From positions 62,001-126,000 of the forward strand of contig NZ_WKKW01000003.1 in NCBI RefSeq assembly GCF_009683175.1: 64,000 nucleotides of DNA, read 5' to 3'. The first letter of the stretch is position 1. Each line of letters begins with the position of its first letter. This document shows positions 57,163-61,892 of the stretch, piece after piece. The position numbers and the translations under genes were made by a program. This DNA is from Bifidobacterium asteroides (GTDB lineage Bacteria > Actinomycetota > Actinomycetes > Actinomycetales > Bifidobacteriaceae). Under the pieces are notes generated by a model. The model did no database searches. It was not told the origin of the DNA and saw only the letters and a program-made list of their open reading frames with translations.

Positions 57163-57650
57163 CCATGCCAGCACGTTCGGTCCGTTCCAAGGCCTCCCCG
57201 GACAAGGGGCATCCCCGCATCCAGGAGATGCCCACCAGGCCTGAGCTCAGTCTGATCAAGGGCACAGGCAAGGCAGGCAAGGCGCGCCAGCAGGAACGAG
57301 GTCCAGTGGCTGAGGGGGTCCGGCGTCTGATCGGCTGGACGCGGACCCGGGGCAATCCTCTGCTGCGGATTATGACATCGGTGGTTTTTCTGGCGGCCTG
57401 CATGTTCGGCTCCCTGATGCTGCGCACCCAGATGGTCCAGGATTCTTTCGAGGCCACCCGGATCCAGCATGAGATCAGCAATCTCAACCAGGACGTCCAG
57501 GATGACCAGAACAAGCTCGACCAGCTCCAGGCCTCTCTGCCGGACAAGGCCCAGCAGTTGGGCATGCAGCCACAGCAGGGTCTGAACTCCATCGATCTGC
57601 AGGGCTACAAGCCTCCTCAGGATGCCCATGGCAAGGCGGGGCATCCATGA
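57159..57650 (+). CDS. ftsL: FtsL-like bitopic division protein
   Basis: A 163-residue protein with a basic cytoplasmic N-tail (about 70 residues), a membrane helix (about 69-90, LLRIMTSVVFLAACMFGSLML) and an exported coiled coil (IQHEISNLNQDVQDDQNKLDQLQ). Sequence is not diagnostic; the topology, ATGA overlaps with rsmH and ftsI, and its position define FtsL. It would partner FtsB/FtsQ and activate FtsWI. Confidence 0.8.
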   Translation: MTMPARSVRSKASPDKGHPRIQEMPTRPELSLIKGTGKAGKARQQERGPVAEGVRRLIGWTRTRGNPLLRIMTSVVFLAACMFGSLMLRTQMVQDSFEATRIQHEISNLNQDVQDDQNKLDQLQASLPDKAQQLGMQPQQGLNSIDLQGYKPPQDAHGKAGHP

Positions 57651-59428
57651 GCGGCAAGGGAACCAAGCGCTCCTGGCATCTTTCCTTCTGCAAGCGTTCG
57701 CTGTCTGTGGGCCTGATTCTGATCCTGGTGGCCGCTCTGGCCCTGGGCAAGCTGGCCTACATCCAACTCTTTGACGGAAGGTCCATGGCCCAGGCTGCTG
57801 CGGCAGGTCGCACCGTGCCGCACACCATCAAGGCCCAGCGTGGCCGCATCCTGGATGTCAATGGCCGGGTGCTGGCCCAGAGCCTGGAGCGATACAACAT
57901 CATCGGCGACCCCGAGGCGGCCGCCTCTTTCATACCAATCAACTGCACCAAGCGCACCGGAAACGACTGCCACAGCATCAAGGGCCATCCGGTGGGTGCC
58001 GACGGTGCTGCCGGCGTGGCACGTCTTCTGGCACCGGCCCTGGGGATGAACGCCATGGAGCTGGGCGGCAAGCTCAGCGTTCCCGGACGGTACGTGGTCC
58101 TGGCCAAACGGGTGACTCCCGAGGTCAAGCGCTCCATCGACAAGCTGGGGCTGCAGGGGATCATCACGGCCGAACTGAGCAGCGAACGCACCTATCCTCA
58201 CGCGGATCTGATGGGAGCCCTGATCGGGGGCATCGACGACAGCGGCAAGGGAGTGGCCGGGATCGAGCAGATGGAGAATCGGCGGCTGACCGGCACTGAC
58301 GGCTATACGGTCTATCAGCAGGGGATGCTGGGCCAGGAGATTCCCGGAACCATGACCCGTCAGCGCAATCCGGTCAACGGCAAGGATGTGAGATTGACCA
58401 TTGATCAGGACGTGCTCTGGTATGTCCGCCAGGCCCTCAAGTCAGGCTGCCAGAACTATCATGCGGACTGGGCACTGGCGGTGGTTCAGGACACCCGCAC
58501 CAACGAGATCCTGGCCCTGGCCGACTCCGACGATTACCAGGCGGGCAGCGACCAGGCCAAGGTCAACTCCTCCAGGGCGGTGGCGGAGACTTTCGAGCCC
58601 GGATCGGTCGGGAAGACCATCTCGGCCGCTGGCATGCTCCAGGAGCAGGCGCACTCCATGACCGACCGCTTTACAGTGCCCGACCACATCACCCTCGACA
58701 ACCAGCAGTACAAGGATTCCTTCAACCATGGGGACGAGCATTGGACGCTGGCCGGAATTTTGCAGAATTCCTCCAACGTGGGCATGGTCATGGCCGGCCA
58801 GAACTATCCGGACCAGAAGCGTTACGACTATCTGACCCGCTTCGGCATCGGCCAGGTCTCGGCCCTGGGTCTGCCGGGGGAGTCCAAGGGGCTGCTGACC
58901 ACACCTCAGACCTGGGACCGGCGCACCCGGAACACGGTGCTGTTCGGCCAAGGCTATGCCACCAACGCCGTTCAGCTGACCAATGCCATCGCCACCCTTG
59001 CCAATAAGGGGGTCCGTTCCGACCAGACCATCATCCGCGGTCAGGGCGCCCCCAAAGCTCATCAGGTCAGGGTCGTGGACGAGAAGGTGGCCGCCGAGGT
59101 CATGAACGCAATGGAATCGGTGTCAGAGAAATACGATAAGACGGTCAAGGTGGAAGGCTACAGGATAGCCGCCAAGACCGGCACCGCCGAGGTAGCCGAC
59201 AGCTCCGGCAGGCTGGGCGGCATCGTCAGCGACTGGGTGGGCATACTGCCCGCTGACGATCCCCGCTTTGTGATCACCGTGGTGCTGAAGAACCCCCACA
59301 GCAGCGCCGGGATTTTCGGCGGCGTCACCGCAGGTCCCATCTTCGCCCAGATCGGTGAATTCCTTATGCAGAAATACCAGGTCCCCACGTCCCAGCCCAG
59401 AACCGATGCTATCCCGGTAACATGGTGA
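57647..59428 (+). CDS. ftsI: Septal peptidoglycan transpeptidase (class B PBP, FtsI)
   Basis: A 593-residue monofunctional class B penicillin-binding protein. Membrane helix at about 18-38, dimerisation domain with RGRILDVNGRVLAQS, then the transpeptidase: S320-x-x-K323 in FEPGSVGKTI, SxN in QNSSNVG and KTG in AAKTGTAEV. Crosslinks septal wall with FtsW. It follows ftsL directly. Confidence 0.96.
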   Translation: MSGKGTKRSWHLSFCKRSLSVGLILILVAALALGKLAYIQLFDGRSMAQAAAAGRTVPHTIKAQRGRILDVNGRVLAQSLERYNIIGDPEAAASFIPINCTKRTGNDCHSIKGHPVGADGAAGVARLLAPALGMNAMELGGKLSVPGRYVVLAKRVTPEVKRSIDKLGLQGIITAELSSERTYPHADLMGALIGGIDDSGKGVAGIEQMENRRLTGTDGYTVYQQGMLGQEIPGTMTRQRNPVNGKDVRLTIDQDVLWYVRQALKSGCQNYHADWALAVVQDTRTNEILALADSDDYQAGSDQAKVNSSRAVAETFEPGSVGKTISAAGMLQEQAHSMTDRFTVPDHITLDNQQYKDSFNHGDEHWTLAGILQNSSNVGMVMAGQNYPDQKRYDYLTRFGIGQVSALGLPGESKGLLTTPQTWDRRTRNTVLFGQGYATNAVQLTNAIATLANKGVRSDQTIIRGQGAPKAHQVRVVDEKVAAEVMNAMESVSEKYDKTVKVEGYRIAAKTGTAEVADSSGRLGGIVSDWVGILPADDPRFVITVVLKNPHSSAGIFGGVTAGPIFAQIGEFLMQKYQVPTSQPRTDAIPVTW

Positions 59429-59474
59429 TACCGGCAGGCATCATGGCGTTCCCGGACGAAGGAGAGATTGCAGC

Positions 59475-60356
59475 ATGAGTGCGCTGAGTGAATCAATCTC
59501 CCGACGGTTGACCCTGGGTCAGCTCAAGGGGCGCTACGGGCTTACCCTGGTCCCCGACTTCGCTGAACCAGTCACGGTGACCTCACTGGTGGACGACCTG
59601 CCCTCAGTACGGCCCGGCAGCCTTTATGTGCCTGCAGACCAGCAGGTGGACCAGGGCATGATCGAGGAGGCCGAGCGTCGAGGGGCCTACGCAGCCCTGC
59701 TGCCGACTTCGGCCCGCCAAGAGGTGGGACGAGCCAACATACCCCTGCTCTTCGGCACCATGCACCCCTGGCAGATGGGCCAGTTGCTGGCCAATGCCGC
59801 TGGAGACCCTTCTGGAGCCCTGGCTGTCTTTGCCCTGGTCGGTTCCCAGGTGCAGGACCAGGTGGATCTCCTGGCCGACTTCCTGCACGTGTTGGGCAAT
59901 CCCGTCGGTATTCTCAGTGCCAAGGGCTCATACTCGCTGGACCGGCGACTGGACCTGGAATACCCCCTGAGCATGTTCGATGTGCAGCGCAGTCTGTCCA
60001 TTGCCCTGGAGGACGGAGCGGCCGCCGTGGTCATCTCCGTGGATGAACAGACCCTGGCCAGGGATGCCCTGCAGGCGGTGAATCTGGATGTGGTGGCCTT
60101 AGGCGCCCAGGAGGGCTCAACCCGCGATATGCGGCATGTACGCCTGATCTCCAGGGCCCGCCGATACGGATTCAGCCTGGGCGGGCACACCATTGTGGCC
60201 CGACGTAACGAGGAATCGGACGACCTGGCCCGCCAGTCCCTGCCCGCCGATGCAGAAAGCGACGACCTGTCCCTGTGCATCGCCATGACCATGGCCGCCG
60301 GAGTCAAACGCAACAACATCAGGAGCGCCCTGCGCGTCTCCCGTGAAATGTCCTGA
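59475..60356 (+). CDS. Truncated MurE-like protein without catalytic motifs (pseudoenzyme)
   Basis: A 293-residue protein in the exact murE position between ftsI and murF. It aligns with the first two MurE domains: a MurE-like N-domain (TSLVDDLPSVRPGSLYVPADQQVDQGM ... AERRGAYAALL) and a Rossmann-like middle. The P-loop GTNGKTT of Mur ligases is replaced by VGSQVQDQV (122-130). The region normally EvSSHaL reads ISVDEQTL (188-194), and the TN motif after it reads GAQ. The C-terminal ligase domain, normally about 150 residues, is absent. The frame is intact and codon use is like its neighbours, so this is not obvious decay. A true MurE must lie elsewhere. A structural or regulatory role is inference. 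Confidence 0.8.
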   Translation: MSALSESISRRLTLGQLKGRYGLTLVPDFAEPVTVTSLVDDLPSVRPGSLYVPADQQVDQGMIEEAERRGAYAALLPTSARQEVGRANIPLLFGTMHPWQMGQLLANAAGDPSGALAVFALVGSQVQDQVDLLADFLHVLGNPVGILSAKGSYSLDRRLDLEYPLSMFDVQRSLSIALEDGAAAVVISVDEQTLARDALQAVNLDVVALGAQEGSTRDMRHVRLISRARRYGFSLGGHTIVARRNEESDDLARQSLPADAESDDLSLCIAMTMAAGVKRNNIRSALRVSREMS

Positions 60357-60365
60357 GAGGTGAGG

Positions 60366-61892
60366 ATGAGTCAGTCTGTAGGGGCCGGGTCCATGCCCAT
60401 GACCCTGGAAGAGGTCGTCGAATATGTGCACGGTCGGCTGGTCGAGGCCGGTCCCGGTCGCGAACCCGATCGGCGGTCGGTGCGCATGCGGGTGGTGACC
60501 GATTCCCGGCAGGCGGGGGCCGATGGACTCTTCGTAGCCATCAAGGGCGAGCATGTGGATGGCCATGACTATGTTCCCGGTCTGGGTATCAAGGGCTGCC
60601 GCGCGGCCCTGGTCGACCACCTGGTTCCAGGTGCTGACCTGCCTCAGATTCTTGTGGACGATACAGTTGTGGCTCTGGGTCTGTTGGCCCGGGCCAACAT
60701 AGACCGTCGGCGCGAGGCACAAGGTCCCTTCACTGTCATCGGCATCACCGGCTCTGTCGGCAAGACCACGACCAAGGATCTGCTGGCCTCCCTGCTGGCC
60801 CTGCTGGGTCCTGTGGTGGCTCCGGTCGGGTCCTTCAACAATGAGATCGGTCTGCCTCTGACCGCCTTGGAGGTCGGGCCGGACACCCGTTACCTGGTGG
60901 CGGAGATGGGAGCCAGCCACGTGGGCGAGATTGCAGGTCTGACCCGGATGGTTCCCCCGGACATCGCCCTGGTCCTCAAAGTGGGAGTGGCCCACCTGGG
61001 TGAATTCGGCTCCGTGGAGCGCATCGCCCAGGCCAAGAGCGAGATCGTGCAGGGCCTGGTGCCGGGTGGGACCGCCGTGCTCAATGCCGACGATCCCCGG
61101 GTGGCCGCCATGGCCGATCTGGCCTCTGGGCCTGTTCTGCGGTTTGGGATGACCACTGAGGATGGTGGGCAGGACCGCGACCTGGACGGCTCGGCTCGTT
61201 TTCTGGACAGTGACAGCTTGGACAGGCCGGCCTTCGAGCTGTGCCTGCGTGGCCAGCAGCCGGTTCGGCTGCGTCTGGGCATCCCCGGACGGCACAACGT
61301 CATGAACGCCCTGGCCGCCGCCACGGTGGCCCACACCCTTGGTCTGAACGCAGAGCGCATCGCCGATGAGCTGGGCCGACAGCGGCAAATCAGTCCGCAT
61401 CGGATGGCCCTATCGTCGGTCCGGTTGCCTGATGCCTCCTTCACCCTGATCGATGATTCCTTCAATGCCAATCCCGACTCCGTGCGGGCCGGTCTGGACG
61501 CCCTGTCCGCCTGGAAGGGATCCGATGGCCCGGTCTATCGGATAGCGGTCCTGGGGGTCATGCTTGAGCTGGGCGATCGAGGGGAGCATCTGCACCAGGA
61601 GATTGGCGCCTACTGCCGTCGTCAGGGCATTGATGCATTGGTCGCGGTGGGTTGCCGGGACCAACAGATGGATGCTCTGGTCCAGGCCCTGGTCCGTGGT
61701 GCCGGCGGCCCATCCGATCCGAGCGAGGATCAGCCTGGGTCCATGCGTGTCCTCTTTGCCCAGGACGCTGACCAGGCCGACCAGATGGTCCGCCGCCTGT
61801 GCGCCAGGCATTCGGACCGGCAGAATCTGGTTCTGCTCAAGGGCTCGCACATGTCCGGCCTGTCCGATCTGGCCGACCGGTGGCAGGGCTGA
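60366..61892 (+). CDS. murF: UDP-MurNAc-tripeptide:D-Ala-D-Ala ligase
   Basis: Adds D-Ala-D-Ala to the UDP-muramyl-tripeptide. Length 508 residues. P-loop GITGSVGKTTTKDLL, SFNNEIGLPLT, EMGASHVGEI, NADDPRV and DDSFNANPDSV. ATG 60366 with AGAGG 5 bases upstream is preferred to GTG 60360. It follows the MurE-like gene by 9 bases; all Mur ligase motifs are intact here. Confidence 0.95.
   Translation: MSQSVGAGSMPMTLEEVVEYVHGRLVEAGPGREPDRRSVRMRVVTDSRQAGADGLFVAIKGEHVDGHDYVPGLGIKGCRAALVDHLVPGADLPQILVDDTVVALGLLARANIDRRREAQGPFTVIGITGSVGKTTTKDLLASLLALLGPVVAPVGSFNNEIGLPLTALEVGPDTRYLVAEMGASHVGEIAGLTRMVPPDIALVLKVGVAHLGEFGSVERIAQAKSEIVQGLVPGGTAVLNADDPRVAAMADLASGPVLRFGMTTEDGGQDRDLDGSARFLDSDSLDRPAFELCLRGQQPVRLRLGIPGRHNVMNALAAATVAHTLGLNAERIADELGRQRQISPHRMALSSVRLPDASFTLIDDSFNANPDSVRAGLDALSAWKGSDGPVYRIAVLGVMLELGDRGEHLHQEIGAYCRRQGIDALVAVGCRDQQMDALVQALVRGAGGPSDPSEDQPGSMRVLFAQDADQADQMVRRLCARHSDRQNLVLLKGSHMSGLSDLADRWQG

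Follow-up and report, generated by a model that had tools for sequence, protein, structure and literature searches.

The window analyzed here, a stretch of 64,000 nucleotides from Bifidobacterium asteroides (contig NZ_WKKW01000003.1, positions 62,001 to 126,000 of the forward strand), carries in the murE position of its division and cell wall (dcw) cluster an ATG-initiated gene for a 293-residue protein (59475..60356, + strand; coordinates confirmed exactly), hereafter the slot gene. Its product is an enzyme-derived pseudoenzyme, descended from MurE (UDP-MurNAc-tripeptide synthetase), with no family model of its own. On balance, the data make it probable that a displaced dcw MurE has become a selected, non-catalytic partner in the Mur pathway, most likely acting beside MurF. 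The slot gene would descend from the ancestral dcw murE of the Actinomycetales, with a second, divergent MurE encoded elsewhere performing the ligase chemistry in the Bifidobacteriaceae; if the order of events is reconstructed correctly, it was then that the slot copy lost the ATP loop, the substrate residues, and domain 3. One of two clades in the family keeps this copy as a compact two-domain protein under strong purifying selection, in which a conserved edge opposite the old active site may form the docking surface for a protein. The slot protein would in this way support the cytoplasmic pathway to peptidoglycan precursors as a structural or assembly partner, with the co-encoded MurF as the first candidate partner and the distal MurE as the second.

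Fold and Relationship to MurE

Kinship with MurE is remote at the level of the single sequence. The slot protein of the window gave no Pfam match at E < 1, and reached E = 1.3e-3 with the NCBIfam murE model and E = 5e-4 with Mycobacterium tuberculosis MurE. No Pfam or NCBIfam model covers the slot family above its cut-off, and a Pfam search of 68 family members returned no Mur family and three stray matches of one member each. A profile built from the same 68 members (A1) matched 13 PDB sequences with E values of 4e-16 to 3e-4; one of these is a MurF, and the other twelve are MurE, MurE-like proteins, or MurE-MurF fusions. Aligned with 19 dcw MurE proteins from outgroup genomes of the same order (hhalign), the family profile reached E = 8.6e-20, with residues 10–293 lying on MurE columns 2–340. 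The alignment stops at column 340 of 514, near what we take to be the start of domain 3, and the loss of the whole ligase domain that the initial annotation had described is borne out by this end point.

The predicted structure is a confident MurE-like fold of domains 1 and 2, and structural matches to bacterial MurE chains (compared with VIA-align only, which lists chains ranked high by Foldseek) end at residues 322–380 of those entries. The two-domain fold pattern was therefore recovered by the model and by the structural matches, and the structure prediction and alignment that had been proposed as a check both returned a resemblance to MurE. The domain 1-like part comprises residues ∼10–108 (59502..59798, + strand; an approximate border, presumed from MurE architecture) and has lost its UDP-side residues. 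The domain 2-like part, residues ∼112–293 (59808..60353, + strand), is internally shortened and ends near the domain 2/3 border; the loss extends into the middle of domain 2, with its last two helices kept. Three slot proteins from the genus of the window (loci L083, L084, and L086) carry low-complexity inserts of ∼50–70 residues in domain 1, after residue ∼55; the slot protein of the window has none.

Loss of the Active Site

The former P-loop (residues 122–130; 59838..59864, + strand) reads VGSQVQDQV in place of GTNGKT, and the former EVSSH motif (residues 188–192; 60036..60050, + strand) reads SVDEQ, confirming the loss of both motifs described in the initial annotation. The P-loop pattern GxxGK[ST] occurs in none of the 110 family proteins, slot sequences having been read from 110 of 139 carrier genomes. 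Outgroup MurE has 44 aligned columns with a conservation of 90% or more. The slot family agrees with the consensus in 12 of them and holds it at 70% or more in nine; all nine are Gly, Ala, Pro, or Val, and they include the first Gly of the P-loop. The P-loop T, N, and K, the TT pair, an E, the SS pair, an R, the F-T-N-L stretch, and a Y are lost. In a comparison of MurE columns 147–210 of the outgroup with the consensus of 68 slot rows, domain 2 does not retain the substrate and metal residues of a MurE ligase (TT, E, SS, R, D, H, and Y). In domain 1 the S and R of DSR are also gone and the invariant MurE residues G36 and H40 align to gaps; the DSR S/R and the G...H(G) of this domain are presumably UDP-side residues. 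These positions have catalytic and UDP-contact roles in MurE enzymes. An E[VA]SS match in L107 and a DSR match in L047 lie away from the motif positions. To judge from the sequences, the slot protein has probably lost the binding and ligation of UDP-MurNAc-L-Ala-D-Glu, with the P-loop, the substrate residues, and domain 3 all gone.

Conservation and Selection

Of 151 Bifidobacteriaceae genomes, 139 gave a match to the slot gene, among them all 130 with at least 90% completeness and at most 5% contamination. The 12 genomes lacking a match are all less than 90% complete, and the A1 profile gave no match in any of them at E ≤ 0.1. No stop interrupts the slot gene among the matches listed. An order-wide search with the family profile at 1e-25 matched 27 of 297 genomes, 26 from the family and one with an ordinary MurE in a 536-codon frame; a single stop is counted in 24 of these 27 matches, which in the window genome is the gene's own stop, overrun by the match, and presumably likewise in the others. 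The window genome is of the Bifidobacterium asteroides type, and ten named loci matched at 73–100% identity, from B. mellis, B. polysaccharolyticum, B. choladohabitans, B. asteroides (two), B. mizhiense, B. indicum, B. apousia, and two unnamed species.

Ratios of nonsynonymous to synonymous substitution rates (dN/dS) were calculated by the Nei-Gojobori method from 33 disjoint pairs of relatives, using pairs with dS of 0.05–2.5. The median was 0.094 for the slot gene (31 pairs), 0.097 for ftsI (30 pairs), and 0.136 for murF (31 pairs), where the ftsI and murF values cover the BLAST-matched part of each gene only and the identical slot proteins of L007 and L008 stand in two different pairs. Among the nearest relatives of the window (L007–L022), slot dN was below that of both neighbors in five of eight pairs and not in the other three. 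The slot gene is thus under strong purifying selection, about as tight as that on its neighbors, and on sequence evidence decay is excluded. The survey and dN/dS analysis suggested with the initial annotation gave ∼0.09 and no decay signature, neither frameshifts or stops among the matches listed in relatives nor a ratio near 1. The retained function proposed there for a catalytically empty MurE is supported by this ratio, by family-wide conservation, and by the confident fold. A gene of the core wall operon is kept across most of a family, yet has no family model.

Redistribution of Constraint

The positions under constraint differ from those of MurE. Along the catalytic edge of the central domain (21 strand-end positions) mean conservation falls from 0.90 in MurE to 0.43 in the slot family, and along the opposite edge (15 helix-to-strand turn positions, in HxLGNP, EDG, and DV) it rises from 0.56 to 0.84. 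This edge difference was reached by 0 of 99 circular shifts and 0 of 20,000 permutations, figures that describe rather than test it because the edges were named after conservation had been seen. Two newly conserved turns are found on the opposite edge: residues 137–143 (59883..59903, + strand; LHVLGNP in the window, LHxLGNP in the family), leading from the end of the first helix into the second strand, and E179-D180-G181 (60009..60017, + strand). Helices 127–139 and 167–179 and strands 144–147, 184–189, and 206–209 of the model match the edge assignment. All 110 proteins share T34, T36, G48, Y72, F119, N142, P143, E179, G181, and D205, and 109 of them share H138. As read from the alignment and the predicted model, constraint has shifted across the central β-sheet, from the dead active site to the opposite edge.

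Origin of the Slot Gene

Of the 19 outgroup loci, all from the same order, 16 have a complete MurE flanked by ftsI and murF (in the other three, not all genes were found), and the position claimed for the slot gene in the initial annotation holds, as it too lies between ftsI and murF. Outgroup dcw MurE scored best with the family profile, all 19 rows giving a match (median 53 bits), followed by sister-clade MurE with 7 of 8 rows (31 bits) and distal MurE with 34 of 42 (22 bits; some of these rows are cut or repeat a gene), and MurF gave no match in 6 rows. In a careful set of 47 rows the approximately unbiased (AU) test rejected a grouping of the slot protein with distal MurE alone (p-AU 0.0225) or with sister-clade MurE (p-AU 0.0224). 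From synteny, score, and tree, the best reading is that the slot gene most likely descends from the old occupant of the dcw slot, a descent unproven by the tree.

In a combined FtsI, MurF, and MraY tree, the carriers (47 rows) received a Shimodaira-Hasegawa-like approximate likelihood ratio test (SH-aLRT) support of 100 and the sister clade, which comprises genera g4, g5, and g10 (8 rows), a support of 99; the genus codes g1–g16 are arbitrary labels. Genus g15 had joined the sister clade weakly in an earlier tree. Six rows (L237, L241, L239, L251, L254, and L262) were left out of this combined tree beforehand; the matches of L237 and L241 to murF, which formed a long branch within the outgroup, were dropped.

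Several results weigh against the account given above. Deep divergence of the slot protein is faster than that of its neighbors, with a mean identity of 37% compared with 51% for MurF and 51% for FtsI (351 pairs), and the edges on which the shift of constraint is described were chosen after the fact. The grouping of the slot protein with outgroup dcw MurE has moderate support (FastTree 0.77; SH-aLRT 92, not starred). In a quick set of 58 rows the AU test did not reject placement with distal MurE (p 0.18), with distal and sister-clade MurE together (0.46), or with MurF (0.45), nor did it reject, in the 47-row set, an outgroup MurE clade excluding the slot protein (p-AU 0.32). Finally, the sister clade gave no slot match, and ftsI runs straight into murF in its six readable clusters, with nothing between (L216, L238, L240, L242, L243, and L244), so that the family wall can be made without the slot protein.

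It seems that the displaced murE was either lost or fixed as a pseudoenzyme. A MurE found in g4 and g5 (356–404 bits in seven of eight genomes, and 368 bits in the eighth with its pieces joined) was considered as a retained ancestral dcw copy and rejected, as its gene is located outside the ftsI–murF interval and it groups with distal MurE, not with outgroup dcw MurE (support 0.89). In the other six non-matching genomes, murF lies behind a 454-codon open reading frame without Pfam match (G031), an acyltransferase gene (G043), or a DUF3000 gene (G014); in G003 and G008 the best match to the murF model is probably another ligase, and G040 gave no murF match. One sister-clade genome also contains a 796-residue open frame (L236:5608-7995, − strand) that combines MurG-type glycosyltransferase domains with Mur ligase middle and C-terminal domains.

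A Complete MurE Elsewhere in the Genome

Six genes with a Mur ligase middle domain are present in the window genome. The search for a complete murE advised in the initial annotation located one of them ∼60 kb from the slot gene (G000:C3:181367-182764), a complete protein of 522 residues with GTKGKT and EVSSQ motifs. A match to the murE model at E ≤ 1e-10 was obtained in 151 of 151 family genomes. G008, G014, and G045 (57–82% complete) yielded no complete MurE, and their weak matches may be other ligases. In the g2 genomes examined the match falls in two pieces within one open frame of ∼500 codons. The best NCBIfam model for the distal MurE, PRK00139.2-3, gave 741 bits against a cut-off of 762. 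With the L-lysine-adding model NF010628 (cut-off 536) it scored 382 bits, whereas two dcw MurE proteins of the outgroup reached 258 and 290. Distal MurE forms a separate branch in MurE trees. Its P-loop reads GTKGKT in 42 of 42 rows from carriers, which sample part of the carriers and include some genes twice, and GTDGKT in 8 of 8 rows from the clade without slot gene.

Ten genomes have tandem distal MurE matches (G135:C11 (L205), G142:C1 (L204), G007:C29 (L206), G079, G138, G119, G144, G106, G110, and G121). In L204 and L205 one copy has a DDPN motif and the other has no such motif by pattern, perhaps reflecting different third amino acids. Genome G034 encodes, in addition to the slot pseudoenzyme, a 441-bit MurE with a DNPR motif (G034:C4:396348-397742; L127 and L187), compared with 230–283 bits usual in carriers; it was possibly acquired.

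Genomic Neighbors and Candidate Functions

The slot gene begins 46 nucleotides past the end of ftsI (57647..59428, + strand), which encodes a class B penicillin-binding protein, and a Shine-Dalgarno-like AAGGAGAG (59459..59466, + strand), as read from the sequence, precedes its ATG by 8–10 nucleotides. Downstream, a complete murF (60360..61892, + strand), for the proposed partner or pathway neighbor, starts at GTG 60360 or ATG 60366, 3 or 9 nucleotides beyond the slot gene stop. The unbroken frame, ribosome-binding signal, and tight spacing to murF noted at the outset are all present (293 codons, AAGGAGAG, and 3 or 9 nucleotides). Across the family murF lies 3' of the slot gene in 109 of 110 loci, the region of the remaining locus ending before murF could be read, and ftsI lies 5' in 103 of 110; in L107 the ftsI match is partial and 1.46 kb away. 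Two long open frames, in G087 (976) and G142 (657), were considered as gene fusions and rejected, because ftsI and the slot gene lie in different frames. The constant neighbor of the slot gene is murF.

In a dead enzyme whose ligand residues are gone, contact with a partner is the best way to act. Physical complexes of Mur enzymes are a long-discussed idea, and a protein that seemingly has no chemistry and could act only by binding makes such complexes testable; the slot gene would also be a natural experiment in which a displaced essential enzyme is retained for a structural task. It is possible, as a more tentative proposal, that the slot protein is a dedicated scaffold of the Mur pathway, its docking face holding MurF and other precursor enzymes even where FtsI and FtsW are missing from the cluster, and thus an independent bacterial counterpart of the structural plastid MurE.

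Rather unlikely, but with some support, is a dedicated role as activator, stabilizer, or targeting subunit of the distal MurE, recruiting it to the dcw Mur machinery. A dead paralogue that regulates its live counterpart is a common pattern among pseudoenzymes, and the distal P-loop differs between carriers (GTKGKT) and non-carriers (GTDGKT). This co-occurrence, however, follows one split of the family tree and so represents a single event, and the two genes lie far apart in the window genome.

A role as a flux regulator that senses UDP-MurNAc peptides by binding them is improbable. The domain 1 fold and a VTVTS...PGxLY segment are kept, but the DSR S/R, G36, H40, the TT pair, E, SS, and R are lost and most of these positions are variable. 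The regulator binding UDP-muramyl peptide that the initial annotation had offered is consequently disfavored, since the residues conserved around those sites in outgroup MurE are gone. A new catalytic function built on T34, T36, Y72, H138, N142, E179, and D205 seems no more plausible: each of these seven is shared by at least 109 of 110 rows, but those in the central domain sit, as judged by topology, at helix-to-strand turns away from the old pocket.

Service to the divisome as a partner of FtsI is a shade less plausible still. The frequent upstream position of ftsI speaks for it, and genus g13 speaks against it. Seven g13 genomes of 0.6–0.9 Mb carry the slot gene adjoining murF. In six of these (94–100% complete) no ftsI match was found in the slot region and rsmH lies directly 5' of the slot gene (rsmH, mraY, and murD were identified here by eye from translations); in the seventh, G060 (87% complete), the contig begins 350 nucleotides upstream. 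Each of the six has two transpeptidase genes and one SEDS gene, none in the dcw cluster, one transpeptidase gene adjoining the sole SEDS gene and the other being a frame of 727–753 codons. The window genome has four transpeptidase and two SEDS genes, and G060 one transpeptidase gene and no SEDS match. In g13, ftsW is presumed lost on the basis of the number and location of the SEDS genes. All seven g13 slot proteins keep the invariant residues, with E replacing D180. Retention in g13 without ftsI in the cluster indicates that FtsI and FtsW are not the sole reason for keeping the gene. The structural partnership with MurF or FtsI first suggested is accordingly compatible with the data in its MurF part, given 109 of 110 loci, and disfavored in its FtsI part. 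The ftsI-less clusters of these six reduced genomes (G012, G025, G037, G047, G052, and G056; L054, L062, L070, L075, L078, and L079) retain murF, mraY, and murD.

Decay of the gene to a pseudogene, or its retention merely as a spacer that preserves operon order, would accord with the lost active site and domain 3, the fast deep divergence, and the loss in the sister clade, but is hardly credible given dN/dS of ∼0.09, no stop among the matches listed, residues invariant over 110 rows, and retention in genomes of 0.6–0.9 Mb.

Comparison with Known Systems

No paper on the slot gene was found in the open-licence literature, as judged from search listings; on essentiality, the portions seen of a transposon-directed insertion-site sequencing (TraDIS) paper on B. 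breve UCC2003 (main text, PMC5514069) contain neither "mur" nor "dcw", and those of PMC6327494 name no such gene. None of the terms looked for occurs in PMC5746004. The closest known enzyme is MurE itself (M. tuberculosis, 2wtz and 2xja; M. thermoresistibile, 8g6p), from which the slot protein differs in the absence of the P-loop, the substrate and UDP-side residues, and domain 3, and in its shortened central domain. The distal MurE of the Bifidobacteriaceae is a homologue in the same cell, but complete.

PAP11, a plastid homologue of MurE, belongs to the chloroplast RNA polymerase PEP (plastid-encoded polymerase) as a peripheral subunit and, in the parts of the sources consulted, is discussed as a possible scaffold (PMC12681378, PMC9456514); its C-terminal domain takes part in its contacts, and many catalytic residues are kept in most plants (PMC12681378). 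Both proteins have the MurE fold, but on the portions available PAP11 has the C-terminal domain that the slot protein lacks. PAP11 is also eukaryotic and part of a different complex, and no common descent with the slot protein is evident except that both are MurE relatives. In PDB entry 8f5d, "Architecture of the MurE-MurF ligase bacterial cell wall biosynthesis complex," which is matched by the slot profile and fold, MurE and MurF are physically joined. That entry is one long chain with both halves matched by the profile, whereas the MurE-like part represented by the slot protein is dead and encoded by a separate gene.
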